Shown: positions 8,363 through 59,297 of the stretch, piece after piece
Layout: every line of letters starts with the position of its first letter
Position numbering within the stretch: the first letter of the stretch is position 1
NCBI RefSeq assembly: GCF_030846775.1
Contig: NZ_CP132910.1
Coordinates: 406,001 to 470,000, forward strand
Origin: Geothrix sp. 21YS21S-2
GTDB lineage: Bacteria > Acidobacteriota > Holophagae > Holophagales > Holophagaceae
Direction of reading: 5' to 3'
DNA: 64,000 nt
Made by a program: the position numbers and the translations under genes
Notes under the pieces: model-generated
Told to the model about the DNA's origin: nothing
Databases searched by the model: none
Seen by the model: the letters and a program-made list of their open reading frames with translations, nothing else

Positions 8363-8526
8363 GTCTAACGCCGAAGTTGGGTCGGCCCCAACCTGGCGGT
8401 GCGAACGGGCCGAAGTTGAGTCGGCCCCACCCTAGCGGCACGAACGGAGGAGAAGGAGGTTTGGATAGATGCTACCTCGAAGGGATAAGGTCAACATGGG
8501 ATCCGACCGCGAACGCGGAGTTAGGA
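8363..8526 (-). repeat. Isolated attC-like site, family A, with internal duplication
   Basis: Starts with GTCTAAC and ends with GTTAGGA, with the family A inner arms (GTCGGCCCCAACC on the left; a decayed partner on the right). The left arm is duplicated (8372-8408 and 8410-8447), making the site about 40 bases longer than others. It lies 3' of the brnA at 8566-8790, exactly where the attC of a minus-strand cassette should be, and about 32 kb from the main array. Confidence 0.75.
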
Positions 8527-8565
8527 CCGGCGCGCCATAATGACCATGTTGGTGCGACTCTCTGA

Positions 8566-43009: not shown

Positions 43010-43450
43010 ATGTTGACTAGGCTGGTCCTTGTCGTTCCCTGTCTTGTGTCCGCTTCGGCATCCTGTCAAGAACTGCACCCTCTGCAGGGGGTTTGGCAGG
43101 TAACTGGTATTGAGGGCGATTGCAATTGTGTGGATGCAGCGCCCGGGGGAACTAATACCTATATTTGGCATATGCATCCTGACAATGACGGATCGGTAAC
43201 TATTACTGTGCAAGGAAACACCGCCTTTCCAAGGCTTCTGGGGCATTGGGATTCTGAGACAAAAACCTTGATCATCGATGGTTATGCCACGGATGGCATG
43301 GATGCCTGTTGGTTCAAACTGACATTGGAGAATAATGGAATATTGAAAGGAACGAGGCGGTATCTAAGCGGTGGTGGATCTCGAGATCATCGGCCATGCT
43401 TTATAGATTTCACCATTACAGCAAAGAAAACTTCAACGTATCTAGGCTAG
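43010..43450 (+). CDS. Secreted small protein on plus strand inside the array
   Basis: 146 residues from ATG 43010 (signal peptide LTRLVLVVPCLVSASAS); beta-rich body with GVWQVTGIEGDCNCVDAAPG and YATDGMDACWFKLTLENNGI. Four or more Cys could form disulfides. It has lower GC than the chromosome-type genes and runs against the cassette direction. ATTAGGAGAAGATCT upstream is a plausible ribosome site. Not recognised. Confidence 0.65.
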   Translation: MLTRLVLVVPCLVSASASCQELHPLQGVWQVTGIEGDCNCVDAAPGGTNTYIWHMHPDNDGSVTITVQGNTAFPRLLGHWDSETKTLIIDGYATDGMDACWFKLTLENNGILKGTRRYLSGGGSRDHRPCFIDFTITAKKTSTYLG

Positions 43451-43544
43451 GTCGTGTCCCGCGCAGTTGCCTACCGAGCCCTACCCTGGAGTCGGCGCAC
43501 GGCGCGGGCCGCCGTTGTTGCAGCAAGGAGCCGCGCGCCCCATG

Positions 43545-43667
43545 CCCCAACCCCGAAGTTGATCTGGCCTGGGCCTTGCGCCGCGAACGGGGGAGAAGGG
43601 CATCCGGAAAGACGATACCACCGGGAGAACCGCAGGTTGGGGTCCGATCCCGAACGCTGGGTTTGGA
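43545..43667 (-). repeat. attC-like site, family A
   Basis: CCCCAAC ... GTTTGGA outer boxes, right arm GCAGGTTGGGGTCCGATCCC; left arm altered (GTTGATCTGGCCTGGGCC). Tail GCGCGTGGATATTACCTCG follows. Confidence 0.7.
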
Positions 43668-43700
43668 CCGGCGCGTGGATATTACCTCGTTGGGACGGCG

Positions 43701-43852
43701 CGGTGGGATGGGCCCCCAGTTGAAACGCTCGGAGGAGAAGCGCGCTGATTGCCCATCGGGCTGCGGCTTGCCCTGGTGATGTAGCTCTGGGTTTTTCGCC
43801 AGCTGATACCGGCGCGGAGAAGCCTGCCTACCGTGGCCTTCGGGGGAGCCCC
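43701..43852. repeat. Cassette-end module, copy 2
   Basis: About 150 bases nearly the same as 51090-51262 and 55676-55858 (for example TGCGGCTTGCCCTGGTGATG and GCCTACCGTGG). No credible coding content. It lies just beyond the family A tail. Confidence 0.75.
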
Positions 43853-43953
43853 AACTTGGCGACGGGAACGTGGGAGAAGGGAAGATTGAGCAAGAAAACG
43901 ATTTGAAGGCATCCAAAAGGCGGGGCCCCGGTTGAACGCAAGGATAGGGGGAC
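43846..43953 (-). repeat. attC-like remnant, family A, strongly decayed
   Basis: CCCCAACTTGGCGACGGGAA with GAGAAGGGAAGATTG matches the left half of family A; the right half is only traceable as GTTGAACGCAAGGATAGG. Confidence 0.4.
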
Positions 43954-44122: not shown

Positions 44123-44347
44123 GTGGACATGGATCATTCTGTCCAAGGAATTGCCATATGTATCACGATCGTAGTTGTGGTGACCCTCCTCGTGATGGCG
44201 CTCGAACCGGTAAGGCATTGCCCGAAATGCCACTGCACACTGCCTAGATTCCGAATGCCCAGATCCATTCGACAACTCTTTTGGGGTGGCTGGCGTTGCC
44301 CCGAGTGGGCTTCAAAAGTATCCCGCACTGGCAGGCTCCTGCCATAG
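44123..44347 (+). CDS. Small membrane protein with damaged zinc ribbon
   Basis: 74 residues: one membrane helix (ICITIVVVVTLLVMALEPV) and then CPKCHCTLPRFRMPRSIRQL and WGGWRCPEW. The family form is CPxCGTPLPRxRxPxxxRQxLWGGWxCPxCG; here the last Cys is replaced (CPEW), so the metal site has three Cys plus another ligand or is lost. Plus strand, against the cassettes, about 70 bases upstream of the bacteriocin-like gene. Confidence 0.6.
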   Translation: MDMDHSVQGIAICITIVVVVTLLVMALEPVRHCPKCHCTLPRFRMPRSIRQLFWGGWRCPEWASKVSRTGRLLP

Positions 44348-44416
44348 ACGCATTGCATCCCTGTCCTTTAAAAATGGGCATCAAGGATGCCCTTCCATAC
44401 TGAATTGGAGAATCTG

Positions 44417-44767
44417 ATGAATGTTATTCAAAGGCCTGCAAACATCCTCTCCGAGGACTCTCTTGACCAGATATGCGGAGGAATGTACCCCTTCCGACCC
44501 CAGACGGGACCTGTATATGATTACTCCGTGAACCCGAAAGCGATGGGCGCACTCATGGGCGTGGGGGCCGTGACAGGAGGCCTTGGGTGGATGGCCGTGG
44601 GTGGGATTGGGGCTGTGCCCGGTGCAGTTGGGGGCGCGCTGCTCGGTGGCATAGGTTATACAACGGAGCGCATTCTCAATCCTACGCAGGTTCTCCCGGC
44701 TATGCCCCTTGCCGTTTGCCATAACGCGCCACCGATGGCCATGGCGCATTGCCACCGACCGCGCTGA
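44417..44767 (+). CDS. Probable double-glycine-leader bacteriocin/microcin precursor
   Basis: 116 residues from ATG 44417 (GGAGAATCTG upstream; an ATG at 44387 would add 10). The N-terminus IQRPANILSEDSLDQICGG is a typical GG leader (LSxxELxxIxGG), which would be cut after GG by a C39-peptidase ABC exporter. The mature part has a Gly/Ala-rich hydrophobic core (MGALMGVGAVTGGLGWMAVG, GAVGGALLGGIGY) like pore-forming class II bacteriocins, then a Cys/His tail. No exporter or immunity gene was recognised; the small membrane protein at 44123 is the only candidate for immunity. Confidence 0.65.
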   Translation: MNVIQRPANILSEDSLDQICGGMYPFRPQTGPVYDYSVNPKAMGALMGVGAVTGGLGWMAVGGIGAVPGAVGGALLGGIGYTTERILNPTQVLPAMPLAVCHNAPPMAMAHCHRPR

Positions 44768-44797
44768 AGCGACTTTTGTAATGTTCTAATGGTTGAA

Positions 44798-44839
44798 GGC
44801 CTGGACTAGCGTTCATCTGCTGATACGCCGGTCCAGGCC
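44798..44839. terminator. Stem-loop after the bacteriocin-like gene
   Basis: Perfect 9-bp stem GGCCTGGAC/GTCCAGGCC with a 24-base loop, 30 bases after the stop codon. No T-run follows, so it may be a transcript-end stabiliser rather than an intrinsic terminator. Confidence 0.45.
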
Positions 44840-44906
44840 TATGAACGGAAGAGAGGTCGAGTTCCACGGCTGGGGCTGACGACCAGTGGGTGCGGGTTTA
44901 GGAAAT

Positions 44907-45029
44907 GCCTAACGGCCCAGCTGACCGGACTCAAAGTGGCGGCGCGGTCGGCTGGGAAGGTGGAAGGGGCTCGAGAATTGACGGGTGGATGAAGGTACTT
45001 TGAGGTCCGGGGTCGAGCGCGGGATAGGC
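44907..45029 (-). repeat. attC-like site, family B
   Basis: GCCTAAC ... GATAGGC outer boxes; inner arms GCTGACCGGACTCAAAGTG and CTTTGAGGTCCGGGGTCGAG pair, with extra bases on the right arm as in family A, which sets the same (minus) orientation. Confidence 0.8.
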
Positions 45030-45074
45030 AGACGGACGATTGATGATGTTGCTGGATAACATAGCGCATCGGGT

Positions 45075-45362
45075 TTACACCTGGCCAGATGGGGTGGCAT
45101 GGAAATCAAGGAGCAGCTTGCAGCATGCGTTGCAGCGCCACCCTTCGATGTGGCTGCCGCGAATCATGTCGACTTCTGAATTGATGATGTCTCCACCGCC
45201 AAGTAATTCTTGGAAGAACCCTGGCTTTCCATCGAACCATTGAACCGGCCCCTGCGTGCTTAAAAGCCCCTTGGTCATTGGGCTATTGCAAAAGGGGCAG
45301 AGGGGGCTATCTGAGGGCATGGGACCAGTATAGGTATTCCGGCGTTGTCGGTGGACCATCAC
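45075..45362 (-). CDS. Cassette gene: zinc-ribbon protein (DUF6487-like)
   Basis: 95 residues (or shorter from ATG 45317). CPFCNSPMTKGLL near the start and WRCNACCKLLLDF near the end give two CxxC pairs that frame a small beta domain with GPVQWFDGKPGFFQEL between, as in small zinc-ribbon families. Start 41 bases from the attC box. Function unknown. Confidence 0.7.
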   Translation of the reverse strand: MMVHRQRRNTYTGPMPSDSPLCPFCNSPMTKGLLSTQGPVQWFDGKPGFFQELLGGGDIINSEVDMIRGSHIEGWRCNACCKLLLDFHATPSGQV

Positions 45363-45728: not shown

Positions 45729-47294
45729 ATGGGTCGGGTCACGGATCAGCAGGTGAGGCGTTTGAACGAGGAAATGGCGAAGCATGGCCAGGTCGGCAGG
45801 GCGGCGATGATGGCCAATATGGACCGTAAGACGGCGCGGAGTTACATACGGGCCAAGCAGTTTCCTTCGGAGATGCCGACGGAACGGGCCTGGCAGACCC
45901 GGGCGGATCCGTTCGCGGCGGACTGGCCGGAGGTTGCTGGCCGCCTAGCCGAGGCCCCGGAATTGGAGGCCAAGGGCCTGTTCGAGCACCTGATGCGCCA
46001 GCGGCCAGGGGTCTACCAGGAGGGCCAACTCCGGACCTTCCAGCGGCGGATCCAGGTCTGGCAGGCCCAGTTCGGCCCCGACAAGGAGGTGTTCTTTCCC
46101 CAGGACCACGTGCCGGGCGAAGCCATGCAGACGGATTTCACCTGGGCAACGGAGCTGAACGTGACGATCCATGGCGAGCCGTTCCCCCACATGCTCTGCC
46201 ATGTAGTGCTGCCCTACTCCAACTGGGGCTGGATCACCGTGTGCCAGTCGGAGTCCATGCTGGCCCTGCGGCGGGGGATCCCGGCGGCCCTGGCCCAGCT
46301 GGGCCGGATCCCACTGTTCAGCCAGACCGACAACTCCACTTCCGCGACCCATAAGATCGCCGCCAGCGCTGCGGTCGAGGTGGAGATCACGGGGTCGGGA
46401 GAGGAGAAGTCCACGATTCACAGGACCCGCAGCCGGAAACCCCGGGCCTATAACGACGACTACTGGGACATGATGACCGGGCACTACGATGTCCAGGTGC
46501 GGACCATCAGCGTGGGCAAGTCTGAGCAGAACGGCGACGTGGAAGCCTCGAACAATGCCCTCAAGCGGCGCCTGCACCAGCACCTGCTGCTGCGCGGCCA
46601 CCGGGATTTCCCTTCGGTGGAGGCGTGGGAAGCCTGGGCCCAGGGGGCCTGCGTAATGGCGAACGCCCGCCGCAAGCGGGTTCCCGAAGAACTGGCCGCC
46701 ATGCGGCCCCTGCGGGTGGAGGCGTTCGCCGAGTTCGACGAATGGCGGATCAAGGTAAGCGAGGAAAGCACCCTGCTGGTGAAGCGGAACACCTACTCGG
46801 TGCCTCCGAAGTTGCTGGGCAAGTGGGTGCGGGTGCGGCTCTACGAGATGACGCTGGAGGTCTGGTTCGCAGACCGGCGGTTGCTGGTGATCCCCAGGCT
46901 GCTGGGGGAGTACCGGACCCGCATCGACTACCGCCACGTGGTCAAGGCGATGCTCAAGAAACCGGGCGCCTTTGCCCAATACCGGCACCGGGCGGACCTG
47001 TTCCCGGGGCCGGTCTGGCACCAAGCCCTGGAAGCTCTACAGAAGGGACTGGGCGAGCGCCGGGGCGAAGTGGCCTACCTGCGCAACCTCAACCTGGCCG
47101 CCGAGGAAATGGAGTGCGATGTCGAGGCGGCCCTGGTGCTGCTGATGGCGGAGGGCATCATCCCGGAGCCGGCGCGCGTGCAGGACCTGATGGGGCTGGG
47201 TAGACCCACCGAGATTCCGGACATGCCGGCCCTGGTGGTGGACCTGGGCGGGTTTGACGCGTTGCTGACGGAGCGGCTGGAGGAGGCGGTATGA
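45729..47294 (+). CDS. istA: IS21 transposase IstA
   Basis: 521 residues. N-terminal helix-turn-helix (RAAMMANMDRKTARSYIRAK), then the DDE core: MQTDFTWA, FSQTDNSTSATH and, with the Glu, SVGKSEQNGDVEASNNALKR; C-terminal beta-barrel of Mu/IS21 type (KRNTYSVPPKLLGKWVRVRL). Full length. Overlaps istB by ATGA. Confidence 0.95.
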   Translation: MGRVTDQQVRRLNEEMAKHGQVGRAAMMANMDRKTARSYIRAKQFPSEMPTERAWQTRADPFAADWPEVAGRLAEAPELEAKGLFEHLMRQRPGVYQEGQLRTFQRRIQVWQAQFGPDKEVFFPQDHVPGEAMQTDFTWATELNVTIHGEPFPHMLCHVVLPYSNWGWITVCQSESMLALRRGIPAALAQLGRIPLFSQTDNSTSATHKIAASAAVEVEITGSGEEKSTIHRTRSRKPRAYNDDYWDMMTGHYDVQVRTISVGKSEQNGDVEASNNALKRRLHQHLLLRGHRDFPSVEAWEAWAQGACVMANARRKRVPEELAAMRPLRVEAFAEFDEWRIKVSEESTLLVKRNTYSVPPKLLGKWVRVRLYEMTLEVWFADRRLLVIPRLLGEYRTRIDYRHVVKAMLKKPGAFAQYRHRADLFPGPVWHQALEALQKGLGERRGEVAYLRNLNLAAEEMECDVEAALVLLMAEGIIPEPARVQDLMGLGRPTEIPDMPALVVDLGGFDALLTERLEEAV

Positions 47295-48067
47295 GCAAGG
47301 AAGCGCGTCGGCAACTGGGGGACATGCTGCGGGAGCTCAACCTGACCGGGGTGGCGGCGACTTACGGGGAAGCCGGGAAACGGGCTGAGAAGGAGGGCTG
47401 GGCTTTCGATCGGTTCCTGCACCACCTGATGGAACTGGAACTGGAGCAGCGGCGCCAGAAGCGCCTGGAACGGGTACTCAAGGCCGCCAAGCTCCCGGTC
47501 GGCAAGACCCTGGCCACCCTCAAGCAGGACCTCCTGCCCGTGAAGGTCCGCCGGCAGATGGCGACCCTGATCGAAGGCGGGTTCGTCGACCGGGGCGAGA
47601 ACCTGCTGGCCTTTGGCCTCCCGGGCCGGGGCAAGACGCACCTCGTCTGCGCTCTGGGGGCGGAATTGATCCAGCGGGGCTACAAGGTGTATTTCACGCC
47701 AGCCTACGCCCTGGTCCAGCGCCTGCTGATCGCCAAGCAGGGCCTGGGCCTGGAGCGCGAGATGCGCCGACTGGACGCATTCGACGCGATCATCATCGAC
47801 GACATCGGCTATATCCAGCAGACCCGAGACGAGACCGAGGTTCTGTTCACCCTCCTGGCTGAGCGCTATGAGCGGCGTACCGTGATCATCACCTCGAACC
47901 TGGTGTTTTCCCAGTGGGACCGGATATTCAAGGACCCCATGACGACGGCGGCGGCCATCGACCGAATCATCCACCACTGCGTGATCCTGGAACTGAACGG
48001 CACCAGCTACCGGGCCGATGCGGCCAAGGCACGGATGCCCCAGCCTGAGGAATCCGCATCAGCCTGA
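47291..48067 (+). CDS. istB: IS21 helper ATPase IstB
   Basis: 258 residues. AAA+ ATPase with Walker A FGLPGRGKTHLV and Walker B DAIIIDDIGYIQ, then IITSNLVFSQWDRIF. Assembles on DNA and activates IstA. Stop at 48065-48067, followed by the element's right-end region. Confidence 0.95.
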   Translation: MSKEARRQLGDMLRELNLTGVAATYGEAGKRAEKEGWAFDRFLHHLMELELEQRRQKRLERVLKAAKLPVGKTLATLKQDLLPVKVRRQMATLIEGGFVDRGENLLAFGLPGRGKTHLVCALGAELIQRGYKVYFTPAYALVQRLLIAKQGLGLEREMRRLDAFDAIIIDDIGYIQQTRDETEVLFTLLAERYERRTVIITSNLVFSQWDRIFKDPMTTAAAIDRIIHHCVILELNGTSYRADAAKARMPQPEESASA

Positions 48068-49271: not shown

Positions 49272-51043
49272 TTTGACTGGGTGGGCCGGCTCCCCCGGCG
49301 ACCACAGGGAGGATTGAAAGAAGGGCTTGGCCGTCGGTCATCATTGATGCCCGTCCATTAGCGTGGCCATTGGGTGCTAGGGCCCGGCGGTTCCTGGGTT
49401 CGCCCTTGGATGGGCCCGCCAGGGCACGCTGACACCAGGGCTTTAGCCTAGGCTGAGCTTCGTCCCTCCCCACGCCCGGGCTTGCCTACCCGGCTTTTGC
49501 TTCGGCACAACCTGTCCTACCGCAGCAGGGGCACCGGGTCATCCCGACGATGAGAGCCTGGGCGATGAGGATTTGAAGGGTCTCCAGGGAGCTCGGCACA
49601 TGGCGATCCACGCGGGCGGGGAGAGGCTGCCCAGGGATGACTTCTGGAGAGGGCAAATTGGATTCGTTGGAGGGCCTCCCAGATCGTAGGGGGGAAAAGC
49701 CGAGCTTCCTCGGCGGTCAGGAACGCGTAGGCCGCGATGGCCAGGCTGAAGTGATGGTGGAATCCCCTCCAGGTCCTTCCCTCGAAATGGTCAAGCCCGA
49801 GTTGGTCTTTCAGAACCTGATAGTCCCTCTCGATACGCCAGCGCAACTTGGCCATCCGGATCAGTTCCTGTAACGGGGTTGTGGCGGGCAAGGTTGATAA
49901 CCAGTAGTGGGTGGGTTCGGCCTCCCCCTTGGGCCACTCGATCAGAAGCCACTCCAGAGACGGGACTCTGGTTTGTCGTTGCGTCCGGTGTGCGCTGCGG
50001 ACCCTGAGAATGGTGAACCGCGAGGTCAGGGGCCCCTTGGATCCCTCCTCCCACCAGGTGATCTCCTTCCAGGTTTCCGGGCGCCTGGACAAAGCTATTT
50101 CCTTCACCGTCTTGGGCGGGTGGTCCGGGTCCACCTGCAGCCGGTGGGACCTGGCACCCCTGGCTGGCTTGGGCTTGGGAGGCAGAGGCCTGGTTCCGGG
50201 AGCCCAGACCGTGGTGTTGGATTGGATGCCGGCCACGTAGGTCATACCCAGCCTCGTCAACCCCTCGCAGAACTCCGAGGCGTTCCCGTAGCCGGCATCC
50301 GCCAGCACAGGAGCAGGAGCCATACCCTCCTTGCGGAGCCCCTCGATCATTCCCAGAGCCATTTCCCACTTGGTCTGGAACCGGATTTCCTCCGGGACGC
50401 CTACCTTCTTCCTTGCGACAGCATCCTTCGCCCAGGATTCAGGAAGGTAGAGGCGGAAAGCGCACGGAAGGCTTGTTTCCTGGTTGGCGACGGATACGCT
50501 CACAGCATCCTGGCAATTGTCCTGCTTCCCCTTTAACCCGCAATACTGCCGGGCGACTCCTACCGAATGCTTGCCACTCTTGGGGAAGGCGGTGTCATCA
50601 ACGATCCAGGCTTCCATGGGACCCGTCCGAAGTAGGATAGGCAGGGCGTATTCCCGAACGCCCCGGAGAAGGGCTTCGTGGCTCCATTTGGAATCGGTGA
50701 TGAATTGCTGGACGGCTTCGCGACTTGCTTGGGCATGCCCCGGATCCATCCGAACCGCAATCGGTTCCATGCTCTTTCGGCCGTTCGGAATCAGGAGGCC
50801 CCGGCAATACCCCAGAAGAACCTCATCCCGCCCACACCAATCAGCGCGGTGTAACTCATTGGCAAGCCTGTCGATATATTCCTTGAACCGATCGCTGAAG
50901 CCTTCTGCCTGGACCATGGCACACCTCTCCTTTAGAGCTGTGCGCCTCCGGGGAGAACGGTTGCAATGGACTTGGCGCTCGAAGGCCTGAGCATGCGGGC
51001 CTATACCGGGACGGCAGGGATGGAGCCGGCCCGCCCAGTCAAA
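49272..51043 (-). mobile_element. IS701-family element inserted in an attC box
   Basis: Inverted ends TTTGACTGGGTGGGCCGGCT (left) and the matching GGCCCGCCCAGTCAAA (right). Flanked by a 4-base direct repeat TTAG (49268-49271 and 51044-51047), which fits the 5'-YTAR target of the IS701 family. Length 1772 bp. Contains one transposase gene. Confidence 0.92.
49517..50917 (-). CDS. IS701-family transposase, 3' end frameshifted
   Basis: DDE_5 transposase: WIVDDTAFPKSGKHSVGVAR, APVLADAGYGNASEF, and WRIERDYQVLKDQLGLDHFE with the catalytic Glu. The frame shown ends in an unlikely Pro/Arg-rich tail. The neighbouring frame from about 49630 reads VPSSLETLQILIAQALIVGM and TRCPCCGRTGC, the normal family end, so a single-base shift seems to have occurred near 49630. 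Activity is doubtful. Confidence 0.88.
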   Translation of the reverse strand: MVQAEGFSDRFKEYIDRLANELHRADWCGRDEVLLGYCRGLLIPNGRKSMEPIAVRMDPGHAQASREAVQQFITDSKWSHEALLRGVREYALPILLRTGPMEAWIVDDTAFPKSGKHSVGVARQYCGLKGKQDNCQDAVSVSVANQETSLPCAFRLYLPESWAKDAVARKKVGVPEEIRFQTKWEMALGMIEGLRKEGMAPAPVLADAGYGNASEFCEGLTRLGMTYVAGIQSNTTVWAPGTRPLPPKPKPARGARSHRLQVDPDHPPKTVKEIALSRRPETWKEITWWEEGSKGPLTSRFTILRVRSAHRTQRQTRVPSLEWLLIEWPKGEAEPTHYWLSTLPATTPLQELIRMAKLRWRIERDYQVLKDQLGLDHFEGRTWRGFHHHFSLAIAAYAFLTAEEARLFPPTIWEALQRIQFALSRSHPWAASPRPRGSPCAELPGDPSNPHRPGSHRRDDPVPLLR

Positions 51044-55675: not shown

Positions 55676-55858
55676 GGTGGGATGGGCGTTCAGTTGAAAC
55701 GCTCGGAGGAGAAGGGCGCTGATCGCCCACCGGGTTGCGGCTTGCCCTGGTGATGAAGCTCTGGGCTTCTCGCCCACCGCGGCCGACGCGGTGAGACCCG
55801 CCTACCGTGGTCATCGGGGGAGTCGCCTCATACCGCAGCGCAATGCTGGGCCCCGCGG
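55676..55858. repeat. Cassette-end module, copy 4
   Basis: Runs from the tail of the attC site (55516-55641) to the stop of the next gene at 55872. Near-identical to copies 2 and 3 (GTTGAAACGCTCGGAGGAGA, TGCGGCTTGCCCTGGTGATG). No credible gene. Confidence 0.75.
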
Positions 55859-56992: not shown

Positions 56993-57977
56993 GACATCAT
57001 GTATTGGCCCGGCGAATTTGAAGGGATCGATTCTCCAGGTTACTCCGGGGGCTCTGCCCCCGGGCCCCCGGGGTTTATCGCCTGACGCCCAGAAACTGGG
57101 GCATCACTGAAAAAGGGGGCCGGGAAGCTCCCGGCCCATCAGTTTCCGGGCCCGGGCCGGCGCTCAGGTCGCATCCCTGCGGAGCCTTGTCTTCCGCCCG
57201 GCTGAACGAAGGGTGAGTCCCTCGCGGTGGGTTCGCAAGAGAGGAAAAGGGCCTGCCCGTCCGCAGCGTTCGTGGATTAAGCTCGGGTCGCTTTTCAACC
57301 AACCGGCTCAGAGCCGTAAATGAGGAGGGCAGGCGATGGAAGTCTACTGCAAATTCGTCGGGTTGGATGTCCACAAAGCAACGATCGCCGCTGCTGTGGC
57401 GGAAGGTGCGGGCGGAGTGCCCTGCTATCTGGGGGAGATCCCAAACACCCCGGAAGCGGTGGCCCAGTTGGTCCGGAAGCTGAAGAAGGACCACGCCCCG
57501 CTCCGGTTCTGCTACGAGGCCGGTCCGTGCGGGTTCGGGCTATACAGGCAGTTGCGCAGCCTGGGCCAGGAGTGCCAGGTGGTGGCGCCGTCGCTGATCC
57601 CGAAAAAGCCCGGCTGCCGGATCAAGAACGACCGCCGGGACAGCCTGTCGCTTGCGGATTTGTTTCGCTCCGGCCACTTGACCGCAGTCTGGGTGCCGGG
57701 CGAACCCCAGGAAGCGCTGCGCGACCTGACCCGGGCCCGGGAGGACCTGATGCGCGTGCATAAGCAAGCCAAGCAGCGGTTGCTGGGCTTCTTGCTGCGC
57801 CACGGCAAGCGCTATCCGGAAAAGAGCCACTGGACCCAGGCGCACTTCCGTTGGCTGGAGACGATCAAGTTCGACCGCCCTGTGCAGCAGATCGTGTTCC
57901 AGGAATACGTGGACCTGGTCCTGGCCATGGGGGTCCGGGTCAAGGCCCTGGACACCCAGATCCTGGCGGCCGAGCCC
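56993..57977 (+). mobile_element. IS1111-group element in attC, truncated
   Basis: Begins GACATCATGTATTGGCC, the same end as the element at 10930 (reverse orientation), directly after CCTCGA of an attC arm. GC hairpin near 57045-57072, then the first part of a transposase. The 3' portion is replaced by an IS3 element at 57978. IS1111-group 'attC' elements are known to target these sites. Confidence 0.85.
57336..57977 (+). pseudogene. IS1111-group transposase, truncated by IS3
   Basis: First ~214 residues of a DEDD transposase (FVGLDVHKATIAAAVAE; FCYEAGPCGFGLYRQL; KNDRRDSLSLADLF; QQIVFQEYVDLV), about 70% like the copy at 9443-10567 by eye. The C-terminal catalytic-serine half is missing; the frame continues 12 codons into the IS3 end. 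Confidence 0.92.
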
Positions 57978-58044
57978 TGGCCTTTCCCCAAATCTGAGTA
58001 CCAAATGAAACGTTAGGGCTCATCCTGAACGAGGAGAACCCTGA

Positions 58045-58314
58045 ATGCGCAAGCCCAAGCTCACCGACGAGCAGATCGTCGCCCTTCTGCGTGAGGCAGA
58101 ACGAGGCGAAAACACCATCACCGAGCTTTGCAAAAAGGCCGGCGTCTCCGAGGTGACCTTCTACCGGTGGCGGAACAAGTTCTCCGGGAACACCGTGCAG
58201 GACGTCCGGAAGCTCAAGCAGTTGGAGAAGGACAACGCTCGCCTCCTGCGGCTCCTTGGGCAGCGGGACGTCGAGATCGACGCCATGAAGGAACTGCTCG
58301 CAAAAAAATGGTGA
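58045..58314 (+). CDS. IS3-family OrfA (helix-turn-helix)
   Basis: 89 residues. PKLTDEQIVALLREAERGEN and KAGVSEVTFYRWRNKF are the IS407-type HTH, followed by a leucine-zipper (LKQLEKDNARLLRLLGQRDV). Ends at an A7 run (58302-58308) where -1 frameshifting would yield OrfAB. Confidence 0.93.
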   Translation: MRKPKLTDEQIVALLREAERGENTITELCKKAGVSEVTFYRWRNKFSGNTVQDVRKLKQLEKDNARLLRLLGQRDVEIDAMKELLAKKW

Positions 58315-59297
58315 GCGCTCCTCAGAAACGCGAGGGGGTAAGGCTCTTGAAGGCTGAAGGGATTTCGGAGCGCAGGATCGCTGTGCTTCTGGGCATCACA
58401 AGGACTGGGCAGCGCTACCAAGCCCGGCCCAAGCCCCAGGACCACCAGGCTGACCTGATCAAGGCCCTGAGCGCCGAACACCCTCGCTACGGGCAGAACC
58501 GCGTCTGGGCCCTGCTCCGGCGCAGCGGCGTCGTCATCAACATCAAAGCCGTGAACCGCATCTGGCAGAAGTACGGCCTTCAGGTTTCTCGGCGGCCAAG
58601 GCGGAAGAAAATCAGGACCGGGGACAGCGTTCCTCGGAAGGCCGAGTTCATCAACCATGTCTGGACCTACGACTTCGTCTTCGACTGGTCGTTCAATGGC
58701 GTCTCCTTGAAGTTCCTGACCTTGGAAGACGAGTTCACTCGGGAGTCGCTGGCCATCGAGGTTGGGCACACCTTCAATTCCCTTCAGGTCCGTGGCGTGC
58801 TGGCCCGGGTCTTCCAGGAGCGCGGCGTACCCAAGTTCTTGCGCAGCGACAACGGCTCAGAGTTCATCGCCATCGACCTGAAATTATGGATCGGGGACCT
58901 GGGCATCGACACTCACCTCATCGACCCCGGCAAGCCCTGGCAGAACGGCTACGCCGAGAGCTTCAACGCCAGGTTCCGGGACGAATGCCTTAACCAGGAA
59001 ACCTTCCACGGCGTGCGGGAGGCCGCCGTCATCATCAAGGCCTTCAGCAAGCGATACAACGAGTGCCACCCGCATTCCAGCCTCGGATTCTATACGCCCA
59101 GGGAGTTTGCCCGGCTTTCCAAGTCGGGGGCTCTGCCCCCGGACCCCCGGGATTTACCGCCTTGGGGCCTACCCGCGGTCAGCAAGAGGACCGCACGCGG
59201 CCCCCTTGCTCCTGCAGTGCAGGCCCCTGGGATGGCGCTCGAGTCGGATCCCTCCGGCGCTCTATCCTCCACCCAGGCAGCGGAGAAGGTATCATGA
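58311..59297 (+). CDS. IS3-family OrfB (rve integrase)
   Basis: About 328 residues; GTG start or translated by -1 slippage from orfA. HTH_21 (HPRYGQNRVWALLRRSGVVI) then DDE: VWTYDFVFDWSF, LRSDNGSEFIA, and NGYAESFNARFRDECLN. After the usual end (SSLGFYTPREFARL) the frame runs ~65 more codons through a GC hairpin, so the true C-terminus is altered by an inserted tail. Confidence 0.93.
   Translation: MSAPQKREGVRLLKAEGISERRIAVLLGITRTGQRYQARPKPQDHQADLIKALSAEHPRYGQNRVWALLRRSGVVINIKAVNRIWQKYGLQVSRRPRRKKIRTGDSVPRKAEFINHVWTYDFVFDWSFNGVSLKFLTLEDEFTRESLAIEVGHTFNSLQVRGVLARVFQERGVPKFLRSDNGSEFIAIDLKLWIGDLGIDTHLIDPGKPWQNGYAESFNARFRDECLNQETFHGVREAAVIIKAFSKRYNECHPHSSLGFYTPREFARLSKSGALPPDPRDLPPWGLPAVSKRTARGPLAPAVQAPGMALESDPSGALSSTQAAEKVS

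Follow-up and report, generated by a model that had tools for sequence, protein, structure and literature searches.

Here, we describe two adjacent genes of the soil bacterium Geothrix sp. 21YS21S-2 (Holophagaceae, Acidobacteriota) that are carried by a reversed integron cassette. They likely encode a bacteriocin that resembles class II microcins (Cdz-like) and is exported in trans, and a zinc-ribbon membrane immunity protein. The original prediction, made from the DNA letters of the locus, of a bacteriocin is probably right. The peptide family is new, genus-restricted, and of a known bacteriocin kind. Two features stand out as unusual: the zinc ribbon of the immunity candidate, and a putative killer housed with its putative protector in a single reversed cassette. 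The window, i.e., the whole 64-kb stretch that was analysed, spans positions 406001-470000 of a 5.25-Mb single-contig genome (G000). Features of the locus are listed in Table 1.

Table 1. Features of the candidate bacteriocin cassette and its borders (window coordinates)
Feature	Position	Strand	Evidence
Putative immunity protein, 72 aa, N-terminal transmembrane helix and Arg-rich zinc ribbon CPKC-x22-CPEW	44129..44347	+	Homologue starts, helix prediction
Hairpin GGGCATC-aag-GATGCCC between the two ORFs, just 5' of the bacteriocin RBS	44376..44392	+	Sequence, G004 comparison
Double-glycine leader, 22 aa, MNVIQRPANILSEDSLDQICGG	44417..44482	+	Translation, homologue comparison, motif scan
Mature part of the putative bacteriocin, 94 aa, begins MYPF	44483..44767	+	Translation, homologues
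Perfect 10-bp stem-loop 3' of the putative bacteriocin gene	44797..44840	+	Folding, z -4.8; genome scan
attC, probably the bacteriocin cassette's own	43542..43669	-	61.9 bits, E 2.6e-10
Weak attC-like match, degenerate site or chance	43823..43951	-	22.4 bits, E 0.032; overlaps repeat shared with 55696-55853
attC bounding the cassette on the high-coordinate side; belongs to the neighbouring DUF6487 cassette	44904..45032	-	121 bits, E 2e-22

The putative bacteriocin and its zinc-ribbon partner

The 116-aa precursor is encoded on the plus strand by ORF 44417-44767, with a GGAG at 44407-44410 ahead of the ATG. Its leader ends in LDQICGG and is followed by a hydrophobic Gly/Ala-rich segment with GxxxG repeats that leads into a Pro/Met/His tail containing two Cys-His motifs. 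This ORF, its GG leader, and its Gly/Ala-rich peptide are present as first described, and the motif and reading frame are conserved in homologues. When both strands of the 64-kb window were scanned with the family leader pattern, ORF 44417-44767 was the single match; the same pattern, which was derived from the family and is therefore partly circular, matched once in ~210 kb of reversed control sequence. The number of GxxxG repeats in the window peptide does not clearly exceed that expected from composition (5 versus 2.5, with 5 being reached by 6.7% of shuffles), and glycine-zipper enrichment is significant in some other family members. The top Pfam model is Bacteriocin_IIc (PF10439), which represents double-glycine class II bacteriocins; its alignment covers residues 9-79 with the leader and the Gly-rich segment, but the score (13.7 bits) is below the gathering cut-off of 27.1. 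The window peptide passed none of the bacteriocin family models and matched ComC weakly, and the family peptides match none of the NCBIfam precursor models. A PDB search with the peptide returned nothing credible and its AlphaFold model was uninformative (pLDDT 43).

A one-helix protein with a damaged zinc ribbon had been proposed to start at position 44123. The helix, the ribbon, and the lost cysteine were all recovered, but translation probably begins at the ATG at 44129, which matches the homologue starts, and less likely at the GTG at 44123. A single helix is predicted at residues 3-24, the only part that AlphaFold models with confidence. In size, position, and helix, the partner is as expected of immunity proteins of class II microcins, its putative role here; known microcin immunity genes encode small proteins with transmembrane helices and are located near the peptide gene (PMC9746304). 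Trp replaces the fourth ligand cysteine (Cys60) in the window copy, and this loss may have impaired the window immunity gene; CPxC...CPxC is the form found in every other copy that neighbours a GG peptide. Profile searches gave weak matches to prepilin peptidase N-terminal domains (PF06750, best 3e-4) and generic zinc ribbons, and PDB searches returned generic zinc fingers only. The weak profile matches are a hint of the partner's origin and no assignment.

The hairpin between the two ORFs has a counterpart at the equivalent position of the G004 homologue (AGGCATC...GATGCCT), which amounts to one compensatory change. The perfect stem-loop reported after the peptide gene was confirmed by folding. 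It lacks a T run and probably forms a transcript-end structure; downstream of the G004 homologue lies a 9-bp hairpin of unlike sequence. An origin of the stem-loop as a genome repeat was rejected, as it is the sole perfect copy in the genome. No Rfam family reached its gathering threshold in the window, and no sigma-70-like promoter was found for the pair.

Homologues, partner linkage, and constraint

When 100 relatives were searched with profiles and protein sequences, eight family peptides were identified, all of them in this genus: three in the genome studied here, one in G004, and two in each of G002 and G005. The GG leader followed by Met is kept in 8/8, and a ninth, leader-only remnant in G002 (L033:1818-1964) retains LSEIELDQIRGG and adjoins a zinc-ribbon gene; the leader on which the original prediction hinged is thus found throughout the family. 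Homologues share 56-58% amino acid identity and retain both leader and partner. A sample of 396 genomes from across the phylum was also screened with a profile, with at most 11 candidates per genome scored in the first pass, and yielded no family peptide outside the genome studied here. Protein searches of genome contigs with the peptide gave no match, as did searches of plasmids, and an alignment of the zinc-ribbon protein, searched against genome contigs, recovered only the two Holophagaceae contigs that were already known, plus a single match that is short and doubtful.

The immunity assignment is strengthened by linkage: across four genomes, there are six loci at which the zinc-ribbon protein is encoded next to a peptide with a GG leader. 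Its gene lies upstream of the peptide at five of these (window, L003, L004, L005, L033) and downstream at one (L014), and the L033 pair was recovered by a profile search that was built without L033. Three further zinc-ribbon relatives (L030, L031, L034) have no GG peptide nearby. Directly downstream of the L011, L013, and L024 peptides, a small hydrophobic ORF of 50-58 aa takes the place of the zinc ribbon; it probably encodes a two-helix protein. Immunity proteins share little sequence among themselves, and the alternating partner types would fit swapped or exchangeable immunity genes. Partner exchange is also suggested by a small tree (supports 0.84-1.0), in which the L014 peptide clusters with the set of the L011/L013/L024 type despite its zinc-ribbon partner. 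Two of the family loci with GG leaders, L011:8088-8633 and L014:7363-7928, are additional to the window pair in the same genome, differ in partner type, and have no attC nearby.

In G002, the L005 peptide is interrupted by a single in-frame TAG and the L033 peptide is reduced to its leader, and both adjacent zinc-ribbon genes are intact. Between the window and G004, dN/dS was 0.37/2.0 for the peptide and 0.39/1.5 for the zinc-ribbon ORF, with dS near saturation. Where dS was estimable, dN/dS of the window's two ORFs was ~0.18-0.27, and changes were biased among codon positions. These results support coding, and both ORFs have apparently been under protein-level constraint.

An exporter encoded elsewhere in the genome

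A C39-peptidase ABC exporter, which the bacteriocin interpretation calls for, is encoded in the genome. The single C39 domain (E 1.8e-36) is part of an ABC exporter whose gene lies in a cluster (L010:8274-13589) with one for HlyD and one for a further ABC protein on its flanks, and its catalytic Cys, His, and Asp were read by eye in the translation (TECGAA, DHFVVV, VDP). The HlyD-family gene (L010:8274-9503) matches TIGR01843 with an E of 3.5e-29, under the model cut-off. NHLP bacteriocin exporter models (TIGR03794/03796/03797) are the best NCBIfam matches of both ABC genes and best or near-best across the cluster, with all scores under the curated cut-offs (659.8 versus 853.3, 261.7 versus 709.4, and 79 versus 156.2 bits). 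The three-gene layout of HlyD, C39-ABC, and second ABC is likewise that of NHLP/NHLM export systems. The exporter (4.41 Mb) and the peptide gene (0.45 Mb) are unlinked. A C39 domain is encoded in 6/6 genomes of the genus, and outer-membrane efflux (OEP) domains have 19 matches in the genome.

A reversed cassette in a detached array

The cassette array occupies ~40-61 kb of the window (40.9-60.7 kb), roughly 20 kb in all. Its ~130-nt repeats align and their paired arms covary (18 pairs, 7 changed on both sides). An attC covariance model detected 18 strong and 3 weak copies in the array, all on the minus strand, which is also where the best ORF of most cassette bodies without transposase is located. 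The peptide and its partner are on the plus strand, and both lie between attC 43542-43669 and attC 44904-45032, in agreement with the original description of a gene read against the cassettes. The weak attC-like match leaves the assignment of the pair to this cassette unchanged. As the pair opposes the polarity of the array, it would have to use its own transcription signals and not the array promoter.

An integron integrase is encoded at G000:4037607-4038548 (TIGR02249, 448 bits), beside an attC array of the same family, which identifies the window array as a detached, integrase-less one. The two are ~3.6 Mb apart, a distance that would be ~1.7 Mb in the opposite direction on a circular contig. 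The window array is a mixture of two attC subfamilies, whose arm sequences differ but are compensated (44904, 52799, 54013, and 56224 versus 45400, 53526, 54878, and 60601), and a lone strong attC (8398-8528, minus strand, 94 bits) lies far from it. The array also holds an IS21-type pair, recognised by Pfam, and other transposase genes that are apparent from sequence only (45729-48067, 49517-50917, 57336-59297). In the cassette body next to the pair, an ORF at 43010-43450 (plus strand) also runs against array polarity; its product probably starts with a signal peptide (MLTRLVLVVPCLVSASASCQ...) and has no confident Pfam match. The DUF6487 protein of the neighbouring cassette on the other side (45075-45362, minus strand) contains two CxxC pairs. 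No attC was found at the relatives' loci L011-L016.

Proposed function and alternative explanations

Briefly, the C39 domain of the distant ABC exporter would recognise the leader and cut after GG, and the 94-aa glycine-zipper-like peptide would exit via this exporter together with HlyD and a channel in the outer membrane, and then insert into the membranes of relatives that are susceptible. The one-helix zinc-ribbon protein would reside in the inner membrane of the producer, with the ribbon probably cytosolic, and block the peptide. The two genes would move together as one integron cassette. The ORFs, leader, homologues, partner linkage, exporter genes, and attC sites were observed directly, whereas we infer that the peptide is exported in trans and kills, that the partner protects, and how the topology and the promoter are arranged. 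A more far-reaching version, in which a self-expressing cassette spreads the bacteriocin and immunity pair, a shared chromosomal C39 exporter acts in trans, and immunity is conferred by a zinc ribbon that is anchored in the membrane and similar to the prepilin peptidase metal-binding loop, is put forward tentatively and is rather less probable than not.

Many long spurious ORFs arise in high-GC DNA such as this array, and the GG motif could be a coincidence. Such chance ORFs are ruled out by conservation, with only a vanishing probability left to them: homologues of 56-58% identity keep leader and partner, changes are biased by codon position, and the leader motif has one match in the window. 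It is considerably harder to dismiss that the window pair is a decaying, non-functional locus with damaged immunity in a cassette that may be silent, an explanation that we consider possible if doubtful and that is compatible with the preferred one. The exchange of Cys60 for Trp and the divergence of one flanking attC fit decay, which has also occurred elsewhere in the genus, namely in the two G002 peptides. However, both ORFs are full length, are accompanied by RBS-like sequences and hairpins, and have low dN/dS, and a cysteine change by itself is no proof of function loss.

The peptide might alternatively be exported by the C39 system without killing, as a signalling or surface peptide or as the precursor of a further-modified RiPP, and its neighbour would then be an accessory protein or receptor. 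Signalling peptides such as ComC have GG leaders too, as do modified peptides; Cys-His motifs are present in the tail, and the exporter cluster is nearest to the NHLP type. We nevertheless consider this unlikely, given that neither the flanks of the pair nor the listed ORFs around the exporter showed a modification enzyme, that the mature peptide is a long and hydrophobic one rich in Gly, and that the partners are alternative small membrane-type proteins as is typical of bacteriocins. A slightly less probable proposal still is that the cassette serves mainly as an addiction module, whereby cells losing it are killed by peptide-making kin and the array is stabilised, a role also proposed for toxin-antitoxin cassettes. 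A complete set of putative killer and protector is contained in one reversed cassette, and toxin-antitoxin genes are common enough among cassettes to form their own category (PMC11089894). The relatives, however, lie outside cassette arrays (no attC in L011-L016), so the pair is independent of integrons, and the exporter is encoded outside the cassette.

Relation to known systems and significance

Class II microcins comprise a GG precursor, a C39 ABC exporter, a HlyD-type adaptor, and an outer-membrane channel (PMC9746304). The system proposed here resembles them (e.g., microcin V) in its GG-leader precursor, its genes for a C39 ABC exporter, HlyD, and outer-membrane channels, and its adjacent small membrane immunity candidate. 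It differs in that the peptide is unmatched by profiles, the exporter is unlinked, the immunity candidate is a zinc-ribbon protein, and the host belongs to the Holophagaceae (Acidobacteriota). With Cdz, the glycine-zipper bacteriocin system of the Gram-negative Caulobacter, it shares a short bacteriocin-like leader, a glycine-zipper-like mature part (tentatively so here), a small inner-membrane immunity protein (a candidate here), and type I secretion (predicted here). Yet Cdz has two peptides beside the exporter and is contact-dependent, whereas one peptide and a distant exporter are present here (PMC5380434).

Resistance genes and toxin-antitoxin genes are the well-known cargo of integron cassettes. 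In the open-licence literature, we found no bacteriocin-immunity pair in an integron cassette, and the only related cassette gene named was MccF (PMC2674596). MccF-like cassettes likewise carry a bacteriocin-related gene, but encode the immunity protein alone and from another family, while both genes are together in the present cassette. A zinc-ribbon mode of bacteriocin immunity was not found described in that literature either.

If true, a cassette that holds killer and protector would make integron arrays a route for interbacterial weapons between kin, and the zinc-ribbon membrane family would represent a new protein type for immunity. The copies across the genus, with some peptides decayed and their partners retained, would then provide a natural series for comparing producers with immune non-producers in the Acidobacteriota.
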